Part shown: piece by piece, positions 2,324 to 43,463 of the stretch | Position numbering within the stretch: position 1 is the first letter of the stretch | Layout of the letters: the number at the start of each line of letters is the position of its first letter | Source: a virus | Length of the DNA stretch: 44,684 nt | Virus record (IMG/VR): IMGVR_UViG_3300019776_000836 | Location: 1 to 44,684 of that record | Reading direction: 5' to 3' (one strand) | The notes under the pieces: model-generated | What the model was told of the DNA's origin: nothing | Database searches by the model: none | What the model saw: only the letters and a program-made list of their open reading frames with translations | Position numbers and translations under genes: made by a program

Positions 2324-3577
2324 TCAGGCCGCCTCGGCGGCTGCGATCTCATCTTGCAGGAACACCCGGATCGGGCTGTTCGCACCCCAGCGCGGATGGC
2401 TGAACCACAGCAGCTGCGATGCCGGCTCCCAGCCATATCGCTGCGTCCGGTCCCAGGCGGAGTAACCCCGCAGCGTGCCCCCGACGATGGCGCGCGGCAG
2501 CCAAAGCGTGGTGTGGTAGTGCCCGATGACCAGGATGTCGGCATCCTGGCCCAGGCTGCGATTGGCGCCACCGACCTTGACCGCGCCTCGGGTGATAGGC
2601 CCCAGCGCGCCGATAATGCCGTCGCCGCCTTTCACGCCCAGCTGGTGGCCGTGCATCAGGTGGTAGCGGGTGCCGGCCACCGGGACGATCTGCTCGCCGG
2701 CGTCCGGGGCGCTGACTTCGATGCTGCGGCGGTCCTCTGGCCGCTCGCGCAGAGCTTCGGCCACCAGGACATAGATCAGCCAGTCCAAGGCTTGGTGCGA
2801 GTGCCCGGCGCCTGGCGGTCGGCGGGTCAGGCGCCCATGGTTGCCGGGCACGCCGACCACGAACAGCCGCCCCCAGGCGTCACGCAGCGCCCGCAGCGCA
2901 TGGGTCAGGCGTGAGACACACCAGGCGACCGCCTGTAGCGGGCTGCAGTAATCGCCGCGGATAAGCTCATCATGCAGCCAGCCGGAGACGAAATCGCCGC
3001 CCAGGAACACCACACCGCCGCGCGCCTTGTCCACATGCTTCGCAGCGAGGGCAATGGCCCGCTTGATGACCCGTTCCGCCCGTTCCTCGGCGACCTCGGC
3101 GTTGAAGACGTTCCGATAGGCCACCTCGGCCGGCACTACCGTCTCGCCGATGTGCCAATCGGTCAGCAGCAGCACCGGCAGGCCAGCCGCGTCGCCCATC
3201 CGCTCCGGCTGAGCCGTCCAGCGGGGCGGGTTGATCGGCATGGCGGAGACCTTGCCGCGCGCTTCGAGGATTGCCGCCGCCAGCAGCGCCTCGCCATCGG
3301 TGCGGGCCTGCTCTTCCTTCACGCGAGCCAGCTCGGCTTTCAGCCGAACGATCTCCCGCCGCTCCCCTTCGGATGGCGGCACCGGCGAGCGAAGCGCAAC
3401 AGGACCGCGCGGCTTCGGGGCTAGGCCATAAAGGATCGCGGCGCTCCGCACTCGGCTCTGCAAGGTGCTGTTGACCAGCCCGAGCGCCTTCGCGGCGGCG
3501 GCCATGTTGCCGCTGGCAGCATCGACGGCGGCAATTGCCTCTTCCGCCAGCTTTCGGTCGAGGGGCTTGCTTGCCAT
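2324..3577 (-). CDS. Metallophosphoesterase with N-terminal helix-turn-helix
   Basis: This 417-residue protein belongs to the calcineurin-like metallophosphoesterases. Metal-binding motifs appear in order: DWH at 140-142, GGDF near 193-196, GNHG near 248, MHGH near 315 and GHYH near 358. The first 60 residues look like a Fis-type helix-turn-helix (ASGNMAAAAKALGLVNSTLQSRV), followed by a short charged coil at about 70-95, so the enzyme may be brought to DNA. Phage enzymes of this class may act as nucleases or phosphatases; the substrate is not known. It lies after the lysis genes at the distal end of the late operon, away from replication genes, suggesting late expression. Confidence 0.85.
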   Translation of the reverse strand: MASKPLDRKLAEEAIAAVDAASGNMAAAAKALGLVNSTLQSRVRSAAILYGLAPKPRGPVALRSPVPPSEGERREIVRLKAELARVKEEQARTDGEALLAAAILEARGKVSAMPINPPRWTAQPERMGDAAGLPVLLLTDWHIGETVVPAEVAYRNVFNAEVAEERAERVIKRAIALAAKHVDKARGGVVFLGGDFVSGWLHDELIRGDYCSPLQAVAWCVSRLTHALRALRDAWGRLFVVGVPGNHGRLTRRPPGAGHSHQALDWLIYVLVAEALRERPEDRRSIEVSAPDAGEQIVPVAGTRYHLMHGHQLGVKGGDGIIGALGPITRGAVKVGGANRSLGQDADILVIGHYHTTLWLPRAIVGGTLRGYSAWDRTQRYGWEPASQLLWFSHPRWGANSPIRVFLQDEIAAAEAA

Positions 3578-3586
3578 CGGGACCTC

Positions 3587-4738
3587 CTATGCGACGCCCA
3601 GCACGCGCTTGGCGCGGGCGGTCAGGATGCGGCGGTCGTCCAGGCCGTTCGTCCCGCCATTGATCGTGCGTGTGATGGCCAGGATGTCGTCCCGGTCGGC
3701 CAGGCGATTGAGGCCCCGGTCCTGCCAGTAGAGGCAGGCGGCTTCCAGCGCCGGGCCGGGCGTGGCAAGCAGCTCCGGCTGCTCGAGCAGCGGCAGGTTC
3801 AGCCGGATGGCGGCGCGATTGTAGTTCGCGCGCCCCGTCGTCTGAATCAGGCCGCGGCCCTTGAAGCGAACGCCATCGCCCTCCCGGATGTTTCCAAGGT
3901 CGCGCCGGCCTTCATAGCCCCGGCCGCTGGCATACTCTTCCAGCGTGCAGAACCGGTCGCATTCGTGCGCGCACTGAGCGAGGAAATGCGCCTGGCGCAG
4001 CGGCGTGTCGATCCCGTAGCGCGCCAGGGTCGGAGCCAGCAGCGGCCCAATGGCGGCGACAATCTCAGCCTGCCGGCCACGACGCTTACCGGCGATGGCG
4101 AGGAGCGTGGAAGCGTCAACCTTCGGGGCCGTCGCCGGGCCCAGCAATCCGAAAGGGCGGCCGGGGCCGGCCTCCACCGGAGCGGAGCGCCCGAGGTCGA
4201 TGGCGGCCTGGGCAATGATGCCGTCCCTGGCCCGCGAGCCGGCCGTGGTGCCCAGCCAGTAGGAGACCGCCTGCCCGCCCCAGGCCGCGACAGCGCCGGT
4301 CAGCACCATCGCCATCTGGGTCTCCGGCAGCGCGCCGAGGAACAGCGCCGCCATGGTGCCGCCGAAGATGGCCAGCACCGCCGCCGTCACGATGGGGGCG
4401 CCCCAGGCGATGGGCGAGCCGGACCGCGCGAGATCTACGGTCTGCGTCCGCGCGCTGGCGGTATCGGCCAGCTCGGCGCGCAGCTCGTCCAGGCCGGCCT
4501 GCCGCTCGGCCTGCCGCTCGGCGGCGGCAATTTCTGCCAGTCGCACCTGTAGCGCGGCAGCCTTGGCGGGGTCGGCGGCGATCGCGGCCTCGGCGGCGGC
4601 GGGGTCATCCGTGCCGGCGATTTCGCGCAGCACCGCGCCGGCCTTTTCGACCACGGCCTCGCCGCGGCTGCCGGCAATCCAGTTCGCCAGGTCGGGCAGA
4701 AACTTGATGAGGAGCGGAATCAGTAGTAGCGGCGGCAT
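3587..4738 (-). CDS. Holin-endolysin fusion: GTA-type 3TM holin domain plus GH19-like glycosidase
   Basis: One 383-residue ORF joins two lysis functions. Residues 1-165 match the 3TM holin family of gene-transfer agents: an N-terminal hydrophobic segment (3-22), a charged coil (28-100) and two membrane segments (about 110-136 and 141-164). After a linker, residues 210-383 form a GH19 chitinase-like muramidase. It has the AQCAHECDRF motif (Glu259 a likely catalytic acid), EEYASGRGYEGR at 267-278, and GVRFKGRGLIQ with TGRANY at 289-306. The gene overlaps the upstream holin by one base (TAATG). A single translated product would tether the muramidase to the inner membrane; internal initiation or cleavage could free it. 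Domain calls are solid; the physiological meaning is inferred. Confidence 0.85.
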   Translation of the reverse strand: MPPLLLIPLLIKFLPDLANWIAGSRGEAVVEKAGAVLREIAGTDDPAAAEAAIAADPAKAAALQVRLAEIAAAERQAERQAGLDELRAELADTASARTQTVDLARSGSPIAWGAPIVTAAVLAIFGGTMAALFLGALPETQMAMVLTGAVAAWGGQAVSYWLGTTAGSRARDGIIAQAAIDLGRSAPVEAGPGRPFGLLGPATAPKVDASTLLAIAGKRRGRQAEIVAAIGPLLAPTLARYGIDTPLRQAHFLAQCAHECDRFCTLEEYASGRGYEGRRDLGNIREGDGVRFKGRGLIQTTGRANYNRAAIRLNLPLLEQPELLATPGPALEAACLYWQDRGLNRLADRDDILAITRTINGGTNGLDDRRILTARAKRVLGVA

Positions 4739-32513: not shown

Positions 32514-33152
32514 TTATGCGGCGGCGGGGCGGGCGATGACGGCGGCGAGCTCTATCACCTCGAGCTTGCGGGCCGGCACCATGACTTGCGTCGGCCGGCC
32601 GAACAGCGCCACCTGAACGATGACCTTGCCGCCATCGACCCGCAGCACCGGGCCGACCTGATCGGCGAAGGCGGTATCGGCGCCGATGCGGACCGTGGCG
32701 CCGGCCCGGAGGAGGCTGTCAGCGGGGCGATCCAGCGCGCCAGCGGCAGCGTGGTCGTCCTGCAGCGCCTCGATGACCCCACGCCGCACGGGCCAGGGCC
32801 GCTCCGCAGCGAGGAAGAACAGCCGATGGACGCCCCGGGTGGAACAGATGGCGCGCCAGCGATCCTGCGCCACATCGAACTGGACGAAGAGGTAGCCGGG
32901 GAAAACGGGGCGGAGGACTTCGGTGTCGCGCCGGGCGTGCCGAACGAAGGCGCGGCGCATGGGCCGCCAGACGTTCCAGCCTTGGGCTTCAAGCTCCCGC
33001 ATCGCGGTTTCCGCGCGGGCGGGCTGATGCTGAAGGACGTACCAGCGGGGGTCAGAATGGCTACCGCAGTCCAGGGTGAAATGCTCACCCGGGACTGCCC
33101 GCTGAGGAATGGTTAGACCCTGGTCGGCGGACCGGTCAACAGGATTCTGCAT
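32514..33152 (-). CDS. NusG-like transcription antiterminator
   Basis: The ATG at 33152 is preceded at eight bases by GAGAGG (33166-33161); an ATG at 33158 lies too close to it. The 212-residue protein has a NusG N-terminal domain at about 36-115 (RWYVLQHQPARAETAMRELEAQGWNVWRP; RPVFPGYLFVQF; ICSTRGVHRLFF). A KOW-type domain sits near 148-200 (AGATVRIG; FADQVGPVLRVDGGKVIVQVALFGRPTQVMVPARKLEVI). RfaH/NusG paralogues bind the elongating RNA polymerase and suppress pausing and termination. As first gene of the roughly 31-kb late operon, it would promote its transcription. The first 30 residues are not part of the domain. Confidence 0.85.
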   Translation of the reverse strand: MQNPVDRSADQGLTIPQRAVPGEHFTLDCGSHSDPRWYVLQHQPARAETAMRELEAQGWNVWRPMRRAFVRHARRDTEVLRPVFPGYLFVQFDVAQDRWRAICSTRGVHRLFFLAAERPWPVRRGVIEALQDDHAAAGALDRPADSLLRAGATVRIGADTAFADQVGPVLRVDGGKVIVQVALFGRPTQVMVPARKLEVIELAAVIARPAAA

Positions 33153-33164
33153 CGCCATCCCCTC

Positions 33165-33410
33165 TCAAACGCCTTGTCGTTTCCGTTTGATTTTTGTTTG
33201 AGCCTTTGTTTGCTCTAAGCCTTTGATATTAAACAATTCAAACAATCAAACGCAGATAATGGAGATTCGCGCGAGGCAATCGTACAGCCGGCCCTGTGCT
33301 TTTTCCCGCGCGCACGCGCGGGGGTGCGTTTGATTGTTTGAACCCTGCAAAAACAAGGGCTTGCGTCAAACAAACGTCAAACATTTTCCAAACAGCCGGC
33401 GATTTCAAAC
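33165..33410. repeat. TCAAAC repeat array (iteron-like), ten exact copies in both orientations
   Basis: TCAAAC lies at 33165, 33238, 33246, 33366, 33377 and 33405 (first bases) on the plus strand. GTTTGA lies at 33185, 33196, 33328 and 33336. Near copies occur at 33208 (GTTTGC) and 33388 (CCAAAC). Several copies are 8-11 bp apart, about one helical turn, suggesting cooperative binding of a protein on one face of the DNA. Confidence 0.75.
33237..33342. repeat. 18-bp perfect inverted repeat spanning the TCAAAC array
   Basis: TTCAAACAATCAAACGCA at 33237-33254 is the exact reverse complement of bases 33325-33342, with 70 bp between. Each arm contains two TCAAAC units. The arms may be paired protein-binding sites that hold a loop, or arms of a cruciform. 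A short GC hairpin (CCCGCGCG/CGCGCGGG, 33305-33322) lies inside. Confidence 0.8.
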
Positions 33411-33412
33411 GG

Positions 33413-35353
33413 CTAGCCCCCTGGCACGGCGGGCTGCACCGGCACGGTCGGATCGTCCTCCCGCGATCCGGGGAGCCGGAGGGCCGCTTCCGGGATGAAG
33501 ACCGCACGGTCCTGGCCGCCGCCGCGGAAATGGATGCTGCCGCCATCCCCCGCGCCCGGCAGGTCGCGCAGAGCCTGGCGCCAGACACGGTTCGCCCAGG
33601 TGGTGTTGTCGAAACAGCGGTTGATCTGCGGCGATGTGTTGCCGAGGTAGACGCCCTGGCCGTGCGACCACCTGATTTTCAGCATCCCGGCTTCTCTCGC
33701 CCGCCGCTTGGCGCGGCTGTCGATTTCGCCATAGGCCGGATCGGACGAGCCGGCCTGCTTCAGCCTGGCCAGCTCAGCGGCGAGGTCGCGCAGATCCTCG
33801 AGCAGCGCGGCCACGGTCATCATGCCCTTGCCGTCGATCCCCACGCGCACCGGGGAGGCCAGGAGGTGGGCGAGGGCGAGCCGACCGGCGTCCGTCTCCT
33901 CAGCCATCGAGGGCGTGACCATCTCCACCCCCAGCGCGTCGATCTCCTCCCGCGCCGCGGTCGGGTCGATCGGTGTGTCGTCGATCAGCGTGCGGTGCCC
34001 CGCCAGCAGCGCGGCGAACTGGTCCGCGCTGCGGCTGGTGGCCTCCGCCGCCAGCAGCGCGGCGCGATAGACCGCCAGGTTCGCCTGGAAGCGCGGCCAC
34101 CCGACCACCAGCCGGGAGAGGAAGGCCGGGTGCATTTCCTTCGCCCAGCCGACCCGCTCGGCGATCTCGGCCTCCTTCGCCGTGCCCCCGCGGCGGAGCG
34201 CGAGGACGGTGATGCGGCTGAGGTCCGCCGCCTCAAAATCTGGCGTGCTGATCGCGGCCAGCATGAAGGGCACATGCAAGTGATAGGTCGTCACCTGCCC
34301 GTCCATCAGCCGGCCGAAGCGGCCGTTGCTGGAAGCCGCGCGCATCAGCGCCAGCACCTCGTTCACGCCCTTGCTGTTCGGCTCCTTCTCATCCAGCACG
34401 ATCAGATGCGAGCGGCCGTTGTGGAGGTTGCGGACATAGGCTTCCGAGACATCCTCGGCCGGCGCGTCGGCGCCGCTGGCGGAGGTGACCAGGCGCAACA
34501 GGGTGCTTTTTCCCGCGCCGGCCGGGCCGCGCAGCCACAGATGCGGGCACCAGTCCAGCGCCGCGGCATAGACCCCGCAGGCAACCATGCCCGCCAAATA
34601 GACCGGTGCCGCCGGGGCGATGCCGGGGACGAAATTCCAAAGCCGGAAGGCATCCACCAGCCGCCGCGCTTCCAGGGCTGTGGCGGCTTTCGCCGCCGGC
34701 CGGGGCCGCTTGTTCGCGGCCAGATGGATGGCGTTATCGTGCTTCCAGCCCAGCGGCCGCTCCAGCGCGTCGGGCGCCGTCCAGACGGCATTCCCGACAT
34801 GGATCACCAGCCCGCCATCGGGCCCGGGCCAGATGCCGTCCTTCCGGTGATCCAGCAGGTTCGCCTGCCCCAGCCGAGTGCAGGCGGTGATGAGTTCATC
34901 GCCCAGGTCGCGGGCGGAGAAATCGCCGGTCGGCAGCATTTCCACCCGGCCGTCATCGTCCCGCACCACCCGGCCGGCGGAATCGCGCTTTGGCCGCATC
35001 TGCGGCCAGCGTTCCGCCATCCATTCCTTGCGCTCCCCGCCGCCGAAGAGGCCGGACAGTTCGGCCACCGTCTGCAGCTGCTTCGCCGTCATCACGACGC
35101 GGTCGCCGGAGGCAGCCAGCAGCACATAGACGATGCTGGAGGCGCGCATATCGGTGCCCAGCGGGATGACCGGACCGAACCGCCCGCCATCCGCACCCTG
35201 GCCGCCTGCGCCCGCGCCGGACCCGCCGCCGCCGCCCTTGCGGTCTTCTTCCTCCGGCCCCGGCTCGGGCAAAGGCGGGATGGATTCGTCGCCGCCGAAA
35301 TCGGCCGCCGGCAGGGCGGAGCCCTTCGGCCAGGGGATGACGGAACCGCTCAT
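33413..35353 (-). CDS. P-loop ATPase of the replication module (helicase-like)
   Basis: The start at 35353 overlaps the upstream gene by four bases and gives 646 residues. After an acidic and Gly-rich linker (about 22-58), the ATPase core shows Walker A GPAGAGKST at 276-284 and Walker B LIVLDE at 317-322. A probable sensor region follows (FMLAAISTPDFEAADLSRITVLALRR near 370-395). Together with the CHC2/TOPRIM primase two genes upstream it would supply helicase activity at the phage fork. The core resembles SF3/DnaA-like phage ATPases, but I cannot name the family. The TCAAAC region follows its stop at once. Confidence 0.75.
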   Translation of the reverse strand: MSGSVIPWPKGSALPAADFGGDESIPPLPEPGPEEEDRKGGGGGSGAGAGGQGADGGRFGPVIPLGTDMRASSIVYVLLAASGDRVVMTAKQLQTVAELSGLFGGGERKEWMAERWPQMRPKRDSAGRVVRDDDGRVEMLPTGDFSARDLGDELITACTRLGQANLLDHRKDGIWPGPDGGLVIHVGNAVWTAPDALERPLGWKHDNAIHLAANKRPRPAAKAATALEARRLVDAFRLWNFVPGIAPAAPVYLAGMVACGVYAAALDWCPHLWLRGPAGAGKSTLLRLVTSASGADAPAEDVSEAYVRNLHNGRSHLIVLDEKEPNSKGVNEVLALMRAASSNGRFGRLMDGQVTTYHLHVPFMLAAISTPDFEAADLSRITVLALRRGGTAKEAEIAERVGWAKEMHPAFLSRLVVGWPRFQANLAVYRAALLAAEATSRSADQFAALLAGHRTLIDDTPIDPTAAREEIDALGVEMVTPSMAEETDAGRLALAHLLASPVRVGIDGKGMMTVAALLEDLRDLAAELARLKQAGSSDPAYGEIDSRAKRRAREAGMLKIRWSHGQGVYLGNTSPQINRCFDNTTWANRVWRQALRDLPGAGDGGSIHFRGGGQDRAVFIPEAALRLPGSREDDPTVPVQPAVPGG

Positions 35354-35550
35354 GGGGAAGCCTCCGCACGCATCGACGGCCGCAGCCGCTCGAGCATTGT
35401 TTCCGCGTAGTCGGTGAAGCCGGCGTCCAGCAGCGCGATCGCCGCCGCGTGCTCCGGCGCTTTGTGGCGCAGCAGCCGCGCCGCTTCGCCGGTATCGCCG
35501 GCGCGAACCAGGGCCAGGGCGGCCTGGGCAATGGCGGAGGGCGAGGTCAT
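35350..35550 (-). CDS. Small hypothetical helical protein
   Basis: The start at 35550 gives 66 residues and a four-base overlap with the preceding gene. It is alpha-helical with a TPR-like look (AQAALALVRAGDTGEAARLLRHKAPEHAAAIALLDAGFTDYAETMLERL). Two helix-pair units suggest a protein-contact adaptor, perhaps between primase and ATPase, which flank it in the operon. Function is not known. Confidence 0.55.
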   Translation of the reverse strand: MTSPSAIAQAALALVRAGDTGEAARLLRHKAPEHAAAIALLDAGFTDYAETMLERLRPSMRAEASP

Positions 35551-35774
35551 CGGCTGGCTTCCAATCCGGCCTGCCGGGCCTTGGCCGAAGCCTGGGCGGC
35601 GGTGAGGCTGGGGAACCAATCGAGCTTGCGCATCGGCTCGCCGCCGACGCGGGCCAGCTGCAGGTTCGCCGGTTCGGCGCGCCACAGGCGCCAGCCGCCA
35701 TCCTCCGCGCGCAGCACCCATGGCCCCGCCCGCCAGGCGCCGGCGGCCTGCTGCTGCCAGACCAGCCCGGTCAT
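35547..35774 (-). CDS. Small hypothetical protein next to primase
   Basis: This 75-residue protein starts at 35774 with an ATGA overlap on the primase gene and ends with one on the following ORF. It has a Trp-rich beta part (VWQQQAAGAWRAGPWVLRAEDGGWRLWRA) and a short C-terminal helix. The pattern of paired tryptophans resembles small phage proteins found beside primases, but no family can be named. Confidence 0.5.
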   Translation of the reverse strand: MTGLVWQQQAAGAWRAGPWVLRAEDGGWRLWRAEPANLQLARVGGEPMRKLDWFPSLTAAQASAKARQAGLEASR

Positions 35775-36844
35775 GCCGCGACCTCCGCCCGCTGGCGCAG
35801 CCACAGATCGGCGTAGTCGCCGCGTTCCTTCGGCGCCCGCACATCCACCGCCACGGCGGCGGCGGCCTGCCGGCGGGCCAGCATGCGTGCGTGGAAAATC
35901 CCCGCGCCTTCGGGCATTTCCTGCCCGCGATGCCCTTCGGCCCGCAGGCGCGGCTTGTCCCGATCGGCGAAGATCACCAGCTCGGCGATATCGAAGGGCA
36001 GCTCCACCGCCGCCAGCGCGCCGGCGTTCAGGCAGGACCAGGTCGGCACGCCGGAGAGGAAATAGGCCGCCAGCGCGGTCTCGATCCCTTCCGCCACACC
36101 CAGCCGCTCCGCCACCGGGAACAGCCGAATGGCGTTGCCCTTCAGCGGCCCCAGGCTCAGCCGCGGATCGCCGACGCCGCCGAGCTTGCCCCAGCCGGCG
36201 CTGCCGCGACCCAGCCAGGTGCGATGGACGCCCCGGAAGGTGCCGTCCGGCCCGTCGATCCGGGCCAGCAGAATCGGGTGCGCGGCGTGCGAGGCTTCCG
36301 GGTGCGGGCCGCAGCCGGCGCGCAGCACCGCATGGCAGGCATCCGGCAGCGGCCACAGCCCGCGGCCGGCCAGATAGGCGGCCTGGGGCGAGCCTTCCAG
36401 GATGGCGGCGCCGGCTTTCCAGATCCGTGCCGCCCGCGCCGTCCGCTGCTGCACGTCGCCATCATCCGGGCGCGCGGCGGCGACCGCCGCCGGCTTCCTC
36501 GGCTGCCAGGGGGCGGGCGCGGGTTCCGCCTGCCAATCGGCGGCCATGCCGGCTTCGGCCGCGCAACGCCGGGCCGCTTCCGGGAAGGAAAGCCCTTCGA
36601 TCTGCGCCACGAAGCGGATGACGTCGCCATGGGCGTTGCAGCCGAAGCAATGGAAGTTCCTGCGGTCCGGCCGCACCGCGAAGCTGGGGCGATTCTCGCC
36701 ATGGAAGGGGCAAAGCCCCATGTGCCAGGAGCCTTTCTTGCGCAGATCCACATGCCGGCCAACCACGGCTTCGATCGGCAGCCGGGCGCGAATCTCATCC
36801 AGCACCGAATCAGGGATGCGGCCGAGCCGCTGCCGGGCCGTCAT
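35771..36844 (-). CDS. DNA primase with CHC2 zinc finger and TOPRIM domain
   Basis: This 357-residue DnaG-like primase has a CHC2 zinc finger (CPFH at 45-48, FHCFGC at 64-69) in the setting GLCPFHGENRPSFAV. A linker rich in Ala/Pro follows (about 104-130), then a TOPRIM domain with RLGVAEGIETALAAYFL near 247-263 and VIFADRDK at 290-297. It lacks a long C-terminal helicase domain; the neighbouring ATPase probably provides it. It makes primers for phage DNA synthesis. Overlaps on both sides are four bases. Confidence 0.9.
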   Translation of the reverse strand: MTARQRLGRIPDSVLDEIRARLPIEAVVGRHVDLRKKGSWHMGLCPFHGENRPSFAVRPDRRNFHCFGCNAHGDVIRFVAQIEGLSFPEAARRCAAEAGMAADWQAEPAPAPWQPRKPAAVAAARPDDGDVQQRTARAARIWKAGAAILEGSPQAAYLAGRGLWPLPDACHAVLRAGCGPHPEASHAAHPILLARIDGPDGTFRGVHRTWLGRGSAGWGKLGGVGDPRLSLGPLKGNAIRLFPVAERLGVAEGIETALAAYFLSGVPTWSCLNAGALAAVELPFDIAELVIFADRDKPRLRAEGHRGQEMPEGAGIFHARMLARRQAAAAVAVDVRAPKERGDYADLWLRQRAEVAA

Positions 36845-38391
36845 GCCGCGCGCCCTGCCCCGCGGAGTTCGCCCTGGAGGCGGAACACCTCATGCGCCGG
36901 CAGGCCGACCCGGGCGGCGATGCGCAGCGGATCGGCACCCCTTTCCCGCAGCGCGGCCAGCGCCGCGTCGCGCTTGCTGGCCTGGCGCTGTTCCACCGCC
37001 GCCATCTGCTGCTCCACCGGCAGCCCGCTAGGGGCGAAGACCCGCACCCGGCGACCGCTTTCGAACTCGACATACCGGGCGGGCCGGGCCGGCGCGGCGG
37101 CAGGCGCCACGCGGGTTGCCACCGGCTTGCCTTTGCGGCGCGCCAGCTTCGGTTGCGGCGCCTTCACCGCCGGCGCGCGCCGGATGGGCGCCGGCTTCGG
37201 CCGCGGCGCCGCCATCTGCGCCGGCTGCGGCGCGGTGCGCCAGGACCCGTCGGGCGCGGCCACAACCCGCCAGCGGGCGCCGCGCTCCACCACGATCAGC
37301 CCCAGATCCTGCGCCCGGGCGACCATGAAGCGGACGGAGGATTCATGCCGGGTGCCCAGCACGGCGGCGAGCTGCGTGGTGGAGGGCGCCGGCTTGCCCG
37401 CCAGGGCGGCCGCGCGGAAGGCGGCCGCCACCAGATGAGAGGACCAGGCCGGGCATTCCTGCCGCAGCGCCGCCACCAGCACAGGCACCGAGGCTTCCAG
37501 CGCGGCCGCCACCGCCGGCAGGGGCTGCCCGGCTTCCAGCAGCGGCATGGCGCGGACATGCAGCGCCGCCAGTTCCACCGGCGTCACCGCGCCCCGGCCG
37601 CCGGCCAGCGTCTGTTCGAACAGCCGCTGACGGCACCGCACCGGCAGGGTCAGGCCATGCTTCGCCGCCAAATTGTAGAGCGTGCGGCGCGAGAGGCCAT
37701 GCGCCGCCGCCACCGAGGTGACCGTGGCGCGCGGCGCGGCCAGGGCCGCCCGCAGCGCGTCCAGATCGTAGTGGTGGCGCTTGCCATCCTGGGGCCCGGC
37801 GGCGCCGGGGCGGGCGATGGGCAGGGCCAGACCGTGCCGGCCGCCCAGGTAGTAGACCGCCGCGCGGCTGATGCCGAAGGCCGCCGCCACCGCGCGCACC
37901 GTGGCGCCCGGGGCGGCCAGGGCCCGCTGCAGGGCTTCGATATCATGCGCCCGCTTCGGCGCCGGCGCGGGCTTCGCCGGCGCGGGCTTCGCCGTGACGA
38001 TGCCGTGCTTGCGGCAGATGAACAGCAGCGTGCCCCTGTCGATCTGCAGCTTCGCCGCGACGCCGCGGGTGGTGGCGCCGGGTTCGGCCAGCGCGGCGCG
38101 AATATCATCCAGCGAATAGACCCCGCGACGGTTGCCGTGCGGCAGGGACAGACCGTGCCGCGCCGCGATTTCCCGGACATAGGCGCGGGACAGGCCGGTG
38201 GCGCGGGCGATCTGCGGCGCTGTCATGCCCTGCCCCGCGGCGTCCAGCACCCGCTGGATATTGCGGCGGGCGCGGCGCGGCCGGCGGCGGGCGGAACGGG
38301 AGTGGGAGGCCGGGGCGGCGGTGCCGGACACCACCCCAGCCTCCCGCGCGGCGGGGAGGAGTGCGCCGCGCATGTCGTCGGGGGCGGTCAT
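36841..38391 (-). CDS. Multi-helix-turn-helix repeat protein of the replication module
   Basis: This 516-residue basic protein contains at least four related HTH units. They lie at about 44-85, 92-133, 149-192 and 208-251, each ending near a (R/K)HGL-type motif (ARHGLSLP, RKHGIV, GRHGLALP, AKHGLTLP) and containing SR-x-x-(V/L)Y at the recognition helix. Further HTH-like parts lie near 271-312, at 333-377 (winged) and near 474-510. The middle section, 380-440, is Pro/Ala/Arg/Lys-rich and likely disordered. It overlaps the primase gene by four bases. It could bind a repeated origin such as the TCAAAC array, or act as a regulator. No comparable family is known to me. Confidence 0.75.
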   Translation of the reverse strand: MTAPDDMRGALLPAAREAGVVSGTAAPASHSRSARRRPRRARRNIQRVLDAAGQGMTAPQIARATGLSRAYVREIAARHGLSLPHGNRRGVYSLDDIRAALAEPGATTRGVAAKLQIDRGTLLFICRKHGIVTAKPAPAKPAPAPKRAHDIEALQRALAAPGATVRAVAAAFGISRAAVYYLGGRHGLALPIARPGAAGPQDGKRHHYDLDALRAALAAPRATVTSVAAAHGLSRRTLYNLAAKHGLTLPVRCRQRLFEQTLAGGRGAVTPVELAALHVRAMPLLEAGQPLPAVAAALEASVPVLVAALRQECPAWSSHLVAAAFRAAALAGKPAPSTTQLAAVLGTRHESSVRFMVARAQDLGLIVVERGARWRVVAAPDGSWRTAPQPAQMAAPRPKPAPIRRAPAVKAPQPKLARRKGKPVATRVAPAAAPARPARYVEFESGRRVRVFAPSGLPVEQQMAAVEQRQASKRDAALAALRERGADPLRIAARVGLPAHEVFRLQGELRGAGRAA

Positions 38392-38618
38392 GCGCCGTGC
38401 CCCGCATCAGGTGCCGCCGCGGCGATGCGCGACGGCTGATCTTCCGGCCGGGCCGGGCCCAGGGCGGCGAAGAGCCGGGCGGCGGTTTCCGCCTGGATCT
38501 GCGCCCGGTCCGCCGCCGCGTGCTGGCCGGCCTGGCGCAGCTGCGCCGCGTGCCTGCGCATGCCGGCAAGGCTGCCCCGCATGGCGACGTGATCGATCGG
38601 CGGAAGACGACGGAACAC
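38388..38618 (-). CDS. Small hypothetical helical protein
   Basis: This 76-residue protein overlaps the multi-HTH gene by four bases. It is helical and Ala/Arg/Gln-rich (HVAMRGSLAGMRRHAAQLRQAGQHAAADRAQIQAETAARLFAAL), perhaps a short coiled coil. No family is recognised. It is separated from the GapR-like gene by five bases. Confidence 0.5.
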   Translation of the reverse strand: MFRRLPPIDHVAMRGSLAGMRRHAAQLRQAGQHAAADRAQIQAETAARLFAALGPARPEDQPSRIAAAAPDAGHGA

Positions 38619-38623
38619 CGCGC

Positions 38624-38932
38624 CTACATCCCCAGCGCTTGGCGATAGAGATCGAGCAGCGTTTCGTGCTCTTGCACCGCCGCCGGTTCCTGCCGGCGGA
38701 TGGCCAGCAGCGCGCGCAGCACCTTCACGTCGAAGCCGGCCGACTTGGCTTCGGCGAACACGTCGCGGATATCGCCGCCCAGCGACTTGCGCTCTTCCTC
38801 CAGCCGCTCGATCCGTTCGACGAGGCTGCGCAGCCGATCGGCGGCGATGCCGCCCGGGTTGGCGGGCGGGTCTTCCACATCGGTCTGGCGCGGGTCGGCG
38901 ACCAGCCGGATGGCGGCAATGTTGCGGGCCAT
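38624..38932 (-). CDS. GapR-like DNA-binding protein (DUF2312)
   Basis: The start at 38932 gives 102 residues. The C-terminal 75 match GapR: AADRLRSLVERIERLEEERKSLGGDIRDVFAEAKSAGFDVKVLRALLAIRR, then QEHETLLDLYRQALG. GapR in Caulobacter encircles overtwisted DNA and assists replication and transcription. The N-terminal 26 residues are extra. Here it lies in the replication operon, so a role in phage DNA topology is plausible. The family is essentially alphaproteobacterial, which supports the host assignment. Confidence 0.88.
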   Translation of the reverse strand: MARNIAAIRLVADPRQTDVEDPPANPGGIAADRLRSLVERIERLEEERKSLGGDIRDVFAEAKSAGFDVKVLRALLAIRRQEPAAVQEHETLLDLYRQALGM

Positions 38933-39099
38933 CAGCCGCGCCCCCGCATCTGCCGTTCGGCGCGCTGCTGATAGGCGATGACCCAGTGCTTCACCGCGAA
39001 GCGTTCCAGCCTTTCGGCCAGGGACACGCGCCAGCGCGCGGAATGGCCCAGCAGGCCGACGACGAAGAAGGCTGTCCGCGACAGCAGAAGATGCCACAT
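38932..39099 (-). CDS. 55-residue protein with one membrane segment
   Basis: This small ORF starts at ATG 39099, sharing a base with the upstream TGA (TGATG), and ends in a TGATG overlap with the GapR gene. The N-terminus WHLLLSRTAFFVVGLLGH is hydrophobic enough to be a membrane anchor, followed by a basic helix (RWRVSLAERLERFAVKHW) and an Arg-rich tail. An early single-span protein of this size may be a host-takeover, superinfection or membrane-docking factor. No family is recognised. Confidence 0.55.
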   Translation of the reverse strand: MWHLLLSRTAFFVVGLLGHSARWRVSLAERLERFAVKHWVIAYQQRAERQMRGRG

Positions 39100-39458: not shown

Positions 39459-39689
39459 CTACTCCGCCGCCGGCAGGGCCGCGATGCCGACCGCAGGCGC
39501 CGGGTCCGGCATGAAATCGGCGGCGGTCACCTTGTTCCCGGTCTCGGCAGCGACGCGCGAGATCATTGGCCAAGACGGACGCATTGCGCCGCTGCACCAC
39601 TTACTGACGGTGACCGAATGAACGCCGAGCCTTTGCGCGAACGCCTCTCGGGTGAGCTTCTGGGCGGCGAGGTAATCGGCGAGCTTCAT
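39459..39689 (-). CDS. Cro-like repressor
   Basis: This 76-residue protein has a compact HTH at residues 12-32 (LTREAFAQRLGVHSVTVSKWCSGAMRP) and a short C-terminal extension. It is divergent from the Xre repressor and first in the lytic operon, which defines a Cro role. The proposed promoter places transcription start only about three bases before the ATG, so translation may be leaderless; no Shine-Dalgarno is present. The operator palindromes O1 and O2 lie in its promoter. Confidence 0.75.
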   Translation of the reverse strand: MKLADYLAAQKLTREAFAQRLGVHSVTVSKWCSGAMRPSWPMISRVAAETGNKVTAADFMPDPAPAVGIAALPAAE

Positions 39690-39698
39690 GGTAAGCCG

Positions 39699-39728
39699 AC
39701 GTTAGCGGTATTCGCTAATTCACGTCAA
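39699..39728 (-). promoter_or_regulatory. Leftward early promoter, covered by operators O1 and O2
   Basis: On the minus strand a TTGACG -35 (39728-39723, five of six matches) and a TAACGT -10 (39704-39699) lie 18 bp apart and face the Cro-like gene. O1 covers the -10 and O2 overlaps the -35, so the repressor would block it. Confidence 0.55.
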
Positions 39729-39742
39729 GCGTCATTCGCTAA
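39702..39742. promoter_or_regulatory. Operator pair O1 and O2 (TTAGCG-N5-CGCTAA)
   Basis: O1 at 39702-39718 is a perfect TTAGCG / CGCTAA palindrome with five bases between. O2 at 39726-39742 has CAAGCG and CGCTAA, so its left half is degenerate. Centres are 24 bp apart, just over two helical turns, permitting cooperative contact between repressor dimers. The same motif recurs after the repressor gene. Confidence 0.75.
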
Positions 39743-39785: not shown

Positions 39786-40163
39786 ATGCCGAAACAGCGC
39801 CGCCGCCCCGGTCACCGCATGCAACACCTTCGCGCCTGGCGAGAAAGTCTCGGGTTGTCACGGCAGAACGTCGTCGATAAGATGGGATTACTTTCTCCCG
39901 CCGCCGAAGGCATGGACCAAGCTACGCTGGCGAAGTGGGAGAGCGGAGAGAGCCGCGTGACCACAGAAGACCTCGAACTGCTTGCGCAGGTGTACGGCGT
40001 TCGCACCGATAGGTTGTTTTTCCAGCCCGGCGACAAGGAGACGCCAAAGCTGCTTGAGGCAGCGCACGAAATCATCGTCGGGCGAGACCCCGAAGCGGTC
40101 CGCGCATGGCTTAACAGCGGAGCGTTTTTGCCGCCGGCGCCTGAAAAACCGAAAAGCGACTAG
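39786..40163 (+). CDS. Xre-family phage repressor (CI-type, no peptidase domain)
   Basis: The ATG at 39786 gives 125 residues; one at 39819 is possible, and neither has a strong ribosome-binding site. The HTH domain occupies about 12-75 (LRAWRESLGLSRQNVVDKMGLLS; DQATLAKWESGESRVTTEDLELLAQVYGV), and a short helical tail follows. There is no S24/LexA-type cleavage domain, so RecA-stimulated self-cleavage is not expected. Palindromic operator pairs lie on both sides of the gene, controlling the divergent lytic promoter and the downstream rightward promoter. It is the best candidate for the immunity protein. Confidence 0.8.
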   Translation: MPKQRRRPGHRMQHLRAWRESLGLSRQNVVDKMGLLSPAAEGMDQATLAKWESGESRVTTEDLELLAQVYGVRTDRLFFQPGDKETPKLLEAAHEIIVGRDPEAVRAWLNSGAFLPPAPEKPKSD

Positions 40164-40199
40164 CGATATCCGCTAGACACGGTTAGCGACTACCGCTAG
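40160..40199. promoter_or_regulatory. Operator pair O3 and O4 (YTAGCG-N5-CGCTAG)
   Basis: O3 at 40160-40176 is CTAGCG / CGCTAG, a perfect palindrome that overlaps the repressor's stop codon. O4 at 40183-40199 is TTAGCG / CGCTAG. Centres are 23 bp apart, as in the O1-O2 pair. Both cover the rightward early promoter. Confidence 0.78.
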
Positions 40200-41453: not shown

Positions 41454-42137
41454 ATGGCTGGATTCGTGACGGTGGCCACGGAAGACGTGGTGCACATGGC
41501 GGAAACCATGCGCCAGACGCACGGCACCGCGGCAGCGCTGCAGATGGTGCTGGGGCTGCTGCGCATGGGCGACGTCAGCGCCGCAGAGGCAGCGCTGGCG
41601 CTGGAGGAAGAGGCGGCGCCGGAGGACGACGGCGCCGAGGCTTCGGAGCACAATGCCGAGGCTGAGGCCGAGCTCGAGGCGGAGCCTGAGGCAGAGCCCG
41701 AGGCCGCCGAGGAGCCGGCCGAGGTGCCACCCGCCGCCGAAGCCGCCGAGCCGGCCGGGAAGCGGCCGCGCACTTGGTGCCTGCCGCGGCAGCAGAGCGG
41801 GCTGTTCAGCGAGGAGCGCAACGCCTTGCTGCGGCGGCTGTGGCAGCAGCCGGGGCTGAGGATCCGGGACATCCTGCTGGCGCTGAACGAGCTGCCGGGG
41901 ACGGCGATACTGCACGATGCCCGGGTTTACGCCCAGGCGAAGCTGCTGGACCTGGGCGTGCGGAACACGAAACCGGCGCCGGCTTCGGCGGACGAGACGA
42001 AGGCCGAAGACCTGCGCGAGGCCGAGGAAATGATCCGCCGCGGCGATGGCGCGCGGGCGGTGGCTGAATACTTCGGCTGGCCGCTGGCCGAGGCGCAGGA
42101 TCTGGCGAAGCGGGTGCGGGCGGAGGGCGGCGCATGA
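41454..42137 (+). CDS. Acidic-linker protein with HTH-like C-terminal region
   Basis: This 227-residue protein has a helical N-terminus (1-50), then a very acidic tract at about 50-100 with repeated EAEPEAE-type units. A basic hinge (KRPRTW) comes next, then two HTH-like parts: FSEERNALLRRLWQQPGLRIRDILLALNELPG near 118-149, and AEEMIRRGDGARAVAEYFGWPLAEAQDLAKRV near 190-221. The acidic tract could mimic DNA or separate two binding modules. A regulatory or anti-restriction role is possible; the family is unknown. Confidence 0.6.
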   Translation: MAGFVTVATEDVVHMAETMRQTHGTAAALQMVLGLLRMGDVSAAEAALALEEEAAPEDDGAEASEHNAEAEAELEAEPEAEPEAAEEPAEVPPAAEAAEPAGKRPRTWCLPRQQSGLFSEERNALLRRLWQQPGLRIRDILLALNELPGTAILHDARVYAQAKLLDLGVRNTKPAPASADETKAEDLREAEEMIRRGDGARAVAEYFGWPLAEAQDLAKRVRAEGGA

Positions 42138-42307: not shown

Positions 42308-42549
42308 GCAGCGATCCGCTACTGACCGCAAGACAAGCTGCGCCCGTGGTCGGCCTGTCTGTCGCGGCCTTCTACAAGAATGTGAAGAGCGGCCGGTTGC
42401 CGTGGCCGCTCTATCCGGCGCCGCGAGCGGCGCGGTGGCGGCTATCCGAACTCAATGCAGCCATCGAAGCGACGCGCGCTTCGCCGTCTGAAGCACAAGC
42501 TGGACGACGCGCTGCGGCAGAGCGCGTTCGAAAAGCGGAGTCCACATGA
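42304..42549 (+). CDS. AlpA/excisionase-type HTH protein upstream of methyltransferase
   Basis: This 81-residue protein has a MerR/AlpA-like HTH at about residues 7-50 (LTARQAAPVVGLSVAAFYKNVKSGRLPWPL; RWRLSELNAAIEA) and a basic tail. Such proteins bind DNA as regulators or recombination directionality factors. It is coupled to the methyltransferase by a four-base overlap, so it may control it or the operon. A second protein of this fold precedes int. Confidence 0.7.
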   Translation: MSSDPLLTARQAAPVVGLSVAAFYKNVKSGRLPWPLYPAPRAARWRLSELNAAIEATRASPSEAQAGRRAAAERVRKAEST

Positions 42550-43463
42550 AAGCCATCGACCTCTTCGCAGGCGCGGGCGGCTTCACCGAGGGCGCGCGGC
42601 AGGCCGGCGTCTCCGTCGTGTGGGCCGCGAACCACTGGCAGGCGGCGGTGGCAATCCACGCCGCCAACCACCCGGAGGCTGCGCACATCTGCCAGGACCT
42701 GCACCAGGCCGACTGGTCGCGGGTGCCGGCGCATGACGTGCTGATGGCCTCGCCCTGCTGCCAGGGCCACACCCTGGCGCGGGGCACGAACCGGCCGCAC
42801 CATGACGCCAGCCGCAGCACGGCGTGGGCCGTGGTCTCGGCTGCCGAGTTCCACCGGCCGGCCGTGGTGGTGGTGGAGAACGTGCCGGAGTTCCGGGGAT
42901 GGCTGCTGTTCCCCGCTTGGGCGGCGGCCATGCGGGCGCTGGGATACACGCTGGCGGAGCATGTGCTGGATGCCGCGGACCGCGGCGTGCCGCAGCACCG
43001 GGAACGGCTGGTGATCGTGGCGACCCGCAGCCGCGCGCCGCTGCAGCTGACCCTGCCGCGTCGGCGGCGGGTGCCCATCGCGCGGGTGCTGCGCTGGGAT
43101 GCGGGCGCTTGGTCGCCGGTGGAGCGCCCCGGGCGCGCGCCGGCCACTCTGGCGAGGATTGAGAGCGGGCGGGCCCGGTTCGGCCGGCGGTTCGTCATTC
43201 CGTACTACGGCAGCGGCAGCGGTCTGACCGGCCGCAGCCTGGACCGGCCGATCGGCACGATCACCACGATAGCCCGCTGGGCTGTGGTGGACGGAGACCG
43301 GATGCGGATGCTGACGGTGGACGAGACGCGCGCCGCGATGGGTTTCCCCGAGGGCTATCACCTGCCGCGCCAGCAGCGCGCGGCGATCCAGATGCTGGGC
43401 AACGCGGTGCCGCCGCCGCTGGCCAGGGACGTGCTGGCGGCGAAGGAGACGGGCAATGAGTGA
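42546..43463 (+). CDS. DNA (cytosine-5) methyltransferase, orphan
   Basis: This 305-residue protein has C5-methyltransferase motifs: I DLFAGAGGFTEG near 5-16, IV SPCCQG with catalytic Cys71, VI ENV at 111-113, VIII QHRERL at 150-155, and IX/X GNAVPPPLA near the end. The PCC in place of the usual PPCQ is unusual. The target-recognition region between about 175 and 235 is short. No restriction endonuclease lies nearby, so it probably protects phage DNA or marks host DNA. It follows an HTH gene by coupling. Confidence 0.9.
   Translation: MKAIDLFAGAGGFTEGARQAGVSVVWAANHWQAAVAIHAANHPEAAHICQDLHQADWSRVPAHDVLMASPCCQGHTLARGTNRPHHDASRSTAWAVVSAAEFHRPAVVVVENVPEFRGWLLFPAWAAAMRALGYTLAEHVLDAADRGVPQHRERLVIVATRSRAPLQLTLPRRRRVPIARVLRWDAGAWSPVERPGRAPATLARIESGRARFGRRFVIPYYGSGSGLTGRSLDRPIGTITTIARWAVVDGDRMRMLTVDETRAAMGFPEGYHLPRQQRAAIQMLGNAVPPPLARDVLAAKETGNE

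Follow-up and report, generated by a model that had tools for sequence, protein, structure and literature searches.

What is the role of a phage protein in which helix-turn-helix (HTH) units follow one another in tandem, and whose gene lies among genes for replication? The protein, P0001, is encoded by a tailed phage known from an IMG/VR viral record (IMGVR_UViG_3300019776_000836), and the whole record of 44,684 nucleotides is referred to here as the window. A preliminary description of this DNA had pictured P0001 as at least four tandem HTH units, placed it in origin binding or helicase loading, and connected it with an array of TCAAAC motifs a few kilobases downstream. The features considered are listed in Table 1.

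Table 1. Features of the P0001 locus, in window coordinates.
Feature	Position	Strand	Evidence
516-aa multi-HTH protein P0001	36841..38391	-	ORF and translation, codon-position GC
HTH unit 1, residues 40-84, ends RHGLSLP	38140..38274	-	HTH_23 3.2e-5 (unit alone); similarity to units 3, 4; AF2 three helices
HTH unit 2, residues 91-134, KHGI	37990..38121	-	similarity to units 3 (z 14), 4 (z 17); AF2 three helices, pLDDT ~80
HTH unit 3, residues 148-191, RHGLALP	37819..37950	-	HTH_23 4.2e-5 (unit alone); unit-to-unit similarity; AF2
HTH unit 4, residues 207-250, KHGLTLP	37642..37773	-	HTH_23 6.2e-4 (unit alone); z 23.8 vs unit 3; AF2
Helical segment, residues 271-312, proposed further HTH	37456..37581	-	not supported
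Winged-HTH module with PDGSWRTA tail, residues 314-392	37216..37452	-	~47% identical to N-terminal part of L006/L007 GcrA-like protein
C-terminal three-helix HTH-like domain, residues 459-515	36847..37017	-	pLDDT ~90, single-sequence model
Cro-like HTH gene, operon head	39459..39689	-	HTH_3 6.9e-7; phrog_35 repressor 9e-11
GapR/UPF0335 gene	38624..39097	-	PF10073 1.6e-30
76-aa gene overlapping P0001 start by 4 bases	38388..38618	-	ORF call
CHC2/Toprim primase, first 4 bases shared with the end of P0001	35771..36844	-	PF01807 1.5e-29, Toprim_3 4.2e-11
Helicase-like ATPase	33413..35701	-	phrog_21086 1.9e-76 (function unknown); phrog_35358 DNA primase 5.4e-25; phage tblastn
TCAAAC array, not tied to P0001	33165..33410	.	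motif count; conserved in sister L004 (P0001 absent from that genome)
Two operator-like palindromes AGCG-N5-CGCTA, between divergent Cro-like and repressor genes	39703..39741	.	sequence scan

The gene, its operon and its phage

The reading frame of P0001 opens with ATG, and its codon-position GC (0.80/0.61/0.90) is like that of the neighbouring genes. The plus strand also holds a 515-aa ORF, with the mirror image of this pattern, which identifies the minus frame as coding; that the gene is real is near certain. P0001 shares four bases with the upstream 76-aa gene (38388-38391) and four with the downstream primase gene (36841-36844), and these overlaps at both ends place it in a leftward operon that reads Cro-like, 117-aa gene, GapR, 76-aa gene, P0001, CHC2/Toprim primase, helicase-like ATPase, NusG-like, and then the terminase genes. 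GapR and primase genes therefore flank P0001 as first described, with one previously unmentioned gene in between, the 76-aa gene, which has no significant match among Pfam and PHROG profiles.

Genes for a tail sheath and an integrase are present in the window. The nearest terminase matches in host genomes come from Neoroseomonas and Roseococcus, others from Acetobacter, Gluconobacter, and Saccharibacter, so that the host group is, by sequence comparison, very likely the Acetobacteraceae. The early right region encodes a C5 cytosine DNA methyltransferase (42546-43463, plus strand; PF00145, 2.1e-44).

A sister phage, G001, has a terminase 89% identical to that of the window, a primase 64-71% identical by segment, and a helicase ~60% identical; a 123-base direct terminal overlap indicates that its assembly closes as a circle. 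G001 keeps the Cro-like and 117-aa-like genes, and from there to the primase only small ORFs are found: GapR, the 76-aa gene, and P0001 are all absent from the circular assembly. P0001 thus appears to be an accessory, dispensable-looking gene of the early operon. Elsewhere in these phages there is possibly a second multi-HTH gene. A 312-aa sister-phage protein (L073:11130-12068, minus strand) has apparent multiple HTH segments by eye and an HTH_24 match at 152-182, and the C-terminal part of a window protein (41454-42137, plus strand) is similar to it, also by eye.

Domain organization of P0001

The whole protein matches the Pfam families HTH_23 (E=5.4e-13; 48.8 bits against a cut-off of 24.6) and HTH_28 (5.4e-11), each over three stretches. 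Searched singly, units 1, 3, and 4 each match HTH_23, and unit 2 alone has no Pfam match. In Smith-Waterman comparisons the unit pairs 1/3, 1/4, 2/3, 2/4, and 3/4 score above all 300 shuffles (z 8.8-23.8), and the similarity of units 1 and 2 is marginal (19/300 shuffles). HMM-defined unit starts fall at residues 43, 93, 150, and 209, a spacing of 50-59 residues that agrees with the 50-58 originally given, and each unit closes with the (R/K)HGL-type motif that had been noticed (RHGL, KHGI, RHGL, KHGL). The DNA identity among the four units is 56-69%, and the duplications are therefore not recent.

From the sequence without an alignment, AlphaFold2 (AF2) predicts a three-helix fold for every unit at a pLDDT around 70-85, and a two-unit model has a mean pLDDT of 81; the low pTM of the whole protein (0.22) fits flexible linkers and conveys no domain arrangement. 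Foldseek returns mostly HTH proteins as best matches, at modest E values (0.05-0.5), among them the bipartite DNA-binding SETMAR/Hsmar1, PAX-6, and Mos1, and the CRISPR-repeat-binding 2LVS. Profile searches, unit-to-unit similarity, and structure prediction bear out the central claim of the preliminary description, and units 1-4 are almost certainly four HTH folds made by duplication. P0001 has a pI of 11.7, a predicted charge of +49, and a long, very basic linker; its membership of the HTH superfamily makes it very probable that the protein binds DNA.

Up to three more HTH-like segments had been suggested, of which two stand. One is a winged HTH at residues 314-392, which has relatives in other proteins; the other, at residues 459-515, folds into three confidently predicted helices, with no family match and no sequence relationship to the units. 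The third, residues 271-312, was rejected, being mostly of low pLDDT and having no significant similarity to the other units.

Relatives of the winged HTH occur in several settings: in L006/L007, where they are ~47-51% identical and a GcrA domain comes next; in L093, where a cysteine-containing tail comes next; at the C terminus of HerA-like ATPases; and in further alphaproteobacterial proteins. In L220 the module is joined to a GcrA-like tail whose PF07750 match (0.00096) is below the cut-off, and in L204 a GcrA-like tail is recognized by eye only. In Alphaproteobacteria more generally, phage regulators and GcrA-like fusions share with HerA-like (DUF87) ATPases a winged HTH that carries a PDGSW-type tail (L006:3803-4744, L093:1225-1863, L204, L220, L094, and L192).

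Search for relatives

Single-sequence searches found no full-length relative of P0001 among INPHARED phages (E 0.01), PLSDB plasmids, viral contigs, and GTDB genome contigs, or in 35 genomes of the nearest genus; in 299 Acetobacteraceae genomes they found the winged-HTH module only. A two-unit profile built from the array returned just single HTHs and one IS630-like transposase from 200 genomes of the family, one weak single-unit match from 385 genomes of the class, and nothing from 40 further genomes or the viral contigs. These negatives are limited in reach, since for each genome the larger searches scored no more than the top candidates, and the contig scans depend on exact peptide patterns. 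HTH matches at the C-terminal ends of response-regulator-type proteins were set aside, since they reflect HTH resemblance in general and the set had been preselected by profile. The PHROG family phrog_9129, which spans two units, matched only the control genome of Sulfolobus acidocaldarius, perhaps through Cbp1 (see below).

Searches of an open-access library for papers on phage proteins with tandem, multiple, or four HTHs turned up no description of this architecture. All searches agree with the earlier statement that no described family has this architecture, the three-HTH Cbp1 being a described analogue. Judged from its sequence, P0001 would be an HTH DNA-binding protein of a familiar sort, distinguished by the unusual length of its duplicated array and by a shuffled winged-HTH module. 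Few bacterial or phage proteins appear to carry an array of four or more duplicated HTHs, and P0001 offers a natural tandem-HTH scaffold for studying how linked HTHs specify long sites.

As an accessory, variable gene in an early operon, P0001 could also serve in host takeover or counter-defence, by blocking a host promoter or by masking sites on DNA. A PADLOC match to mad1 (1.2e-12) points the same way; the 60-position model covers only an HTH, however, and the match was judged to be generic HTH similarity. With no enzymatic or inhibitor domain found and no specific tie to a defence system, this role is very unlikely.

Replication or transcription

The TCAAAC array was confirmed: of the 13 TCAAAC copies in the window, 10 lie within 33165-33410, as inverted TCAAAC/GTTTGA motifs with a 50-nt imperfect inverted repeat, directly before the NusG-like gene. 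It occupies the same place between helicase and NusG-like genes in G001 and is well conserved (L004 ~3520-3760), and it is a candidate origin, promoter, or antitermination-type site for a conserved factor. Because the sister that lacks P0001 carries the array too, the proposed connection between the two was dropped, and the array was rejected as the P0001 target. The adjoining gene (32514-33158, minus strand; PF02357, 5.4e-17) is a phage-encoded NusG paralogue between the helicase and terminase genes, found also in L004, L003, and L080.

The same comparison bears on the suggestion that P0001 is an origin-binding or helicase-loading protein, whose tandem HTHs would recognize iterons and bring the downstream helicase and primase onto the DNA. 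The gene does overlap that of the primase within a replication operon, and L079 and L080 carry, after GapR, proteins that by eye are possible winged-HTH initiators; these have no Pfam match to a replisome organiser, however. An initiator would be expected to be conserved with the primase-helicase module, but G001 combines orthologous primase and helicase genes with only small ORFs at the position of P0001, so the protein is probably not needed to start replication with this primase-helicase pair. Nor is an HTH protein apparent at that place in Synechococcus phage MinM1, which has a related primase, and Pfam detects no AAA+ or helicase-loader domain in P0001. With the array, too, kept where P0001 is missing, the initiator role does not stand up well and is unlikely.

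Operon position and the modules shared with GcrA-like regulators favour a transcriptional role instead. The L006/L007 protein combines the winged HTH found in P0001 with a GcrA domain (PF07750, 1.5e-12), and its gene lies upstream of GapR. In L107, a viral contig with a primase 53% and a helicase 43% identical, a 265-aa GcrA-family protein (PF07750, 1.2e-20) with two tandem HTHs is encoded in the early operon upstream of the primase; the same protein (L107:6676-7473) carries the GcrA C-terminal motif. A PF07750 search found GcrA domains in G003, G004, G005, and G716 and none in the window or G001. Phages of the phiCbK type encode GcrA homologues (PMC3556154), and GcrA has been described as a sigma70 cofactor (Haakonsen et al. 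2015).

P0001 is judged to be an accessory DNA-binding protein with several HTHs, assembled by duplication and shuffling of modules and probably transcriptional in role. It would act from the early operon of a temperate, contractile-tailed phage of Acetobacteraceae. Four homeodomain-like HTH units, derived by internal duplication and separated by flexible linkers, are followed by the winged-HTH module known from phage GcrA-like regulators, the very basic linker, and the C-terminal helical HTH-like domain. The tethered HTHs may line up along a long composite site, and P0001 might thereby repress or activate phage or host promoters from an operon in which related phages keep their GcrA-like regulators. 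The operator-like palindromes lie at the operon head beside the divergent repressor gene, which makes expression of P0001 on induction or infection probable. Every exact match to these palindromes in the window (39703-39741 and 40155-40198) is at one of the two ends of this presumed lysogeny repressor gene.

Counting against a regulator, P0001 has neither a GcrA match nor the GcrA C-terminal motif, which makes the case from operon and modules an indirect one; replication genes flank it, and the possible winged-HTH initiators of L079 and L080 also weigh on this side. Taken as a whole, a sequence-reading regulator of the early operon is the best explanation, with about an even chance of being correct, against the low probability of an initiator. 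Together with its operon relatives, the one- and two-HTH GcrA-like regulators and winged-HTH fusions, P0001 suggests how phage regulators may evolve within one operon, through duplication and exchange of the modules that read DNA.

Comparison with known systems

HerA-like (DUF87) ATPases have a C-terminal winged HTH that aligns with P0001 residues 314-392, but P0001 is without their ATPase domain. Transposases of the Tc1-mariner and IS630 groups, with paired or bipartite HTHs, place two tethered HTHs on each DNA site and are among the best Foldseek matches. P0001 differs from them in having four units and a winged HTH and no catalytic domain; its matches to these proteins are confined to the HTH, and it scores 19.3 bits against 100 for NF033545.

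The GcrA family (PF07750), including its phage-encoded members, shares with P0001 its location in the same early operon of related phages and, in L006/L007, the winged-HTH module. The GcrA HTH itself resembles the P0001 units: for units 2, 3, and 4 against the L006 GcrA, at most 1 in 500 shuffles was as good. Unlike GcrA, P0001 yields no PF07750 match, and the conserved Cys/Trp/His C-terminal motif is absent from its sequence.

The closest described functional analogue is Cbp1 of the Sulfolobales (NF040595, structure 2LVS), like P0001 a duplication-derived HTH chain with short linkers. Its profile matches P0001 weakly over units 1-2 (E 0.0016), and 2LVS is matched by Foldseek. Cbp1, a chain of three duplicated HTHs, forms chromatin-like complexes (PMC10883916), and P0001 could similarly be a DNA-coating or architectural protein, Cbp1-like or nucleoid-like, whose HTH chain occupies many sites, possibly together with GapR. 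The strongly basic character of the protein, its long basic linker, and the nearby GapR gene are consistent with such a role; on the other hand, no DNA repeat array to match it was found, and the Cbp1 score of 18.3 bits is far under the curated cut-off of 140. An architectural function is accordingly quite unlikely, and P0001 does not belong to the Cbp1 family. Cbp1 is archaeal, has three HTHs, and binds CRISPR repeats, whereas P0001 has four duplicated units, a winged HTH, and a C-terminal domain, and a tandem-repeat scan of the window found no CRISPR-like array. A bolder reading can be entertained at low probability: a string of at least five HTH modules, four of them duplicated and one acquired, each diverging independently, which together would read a long composite sequence. 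Such a protein would be the counterpart of Cbp1 in a bacterial virus and would have replaced a GcrA-type regulator in the early operon.
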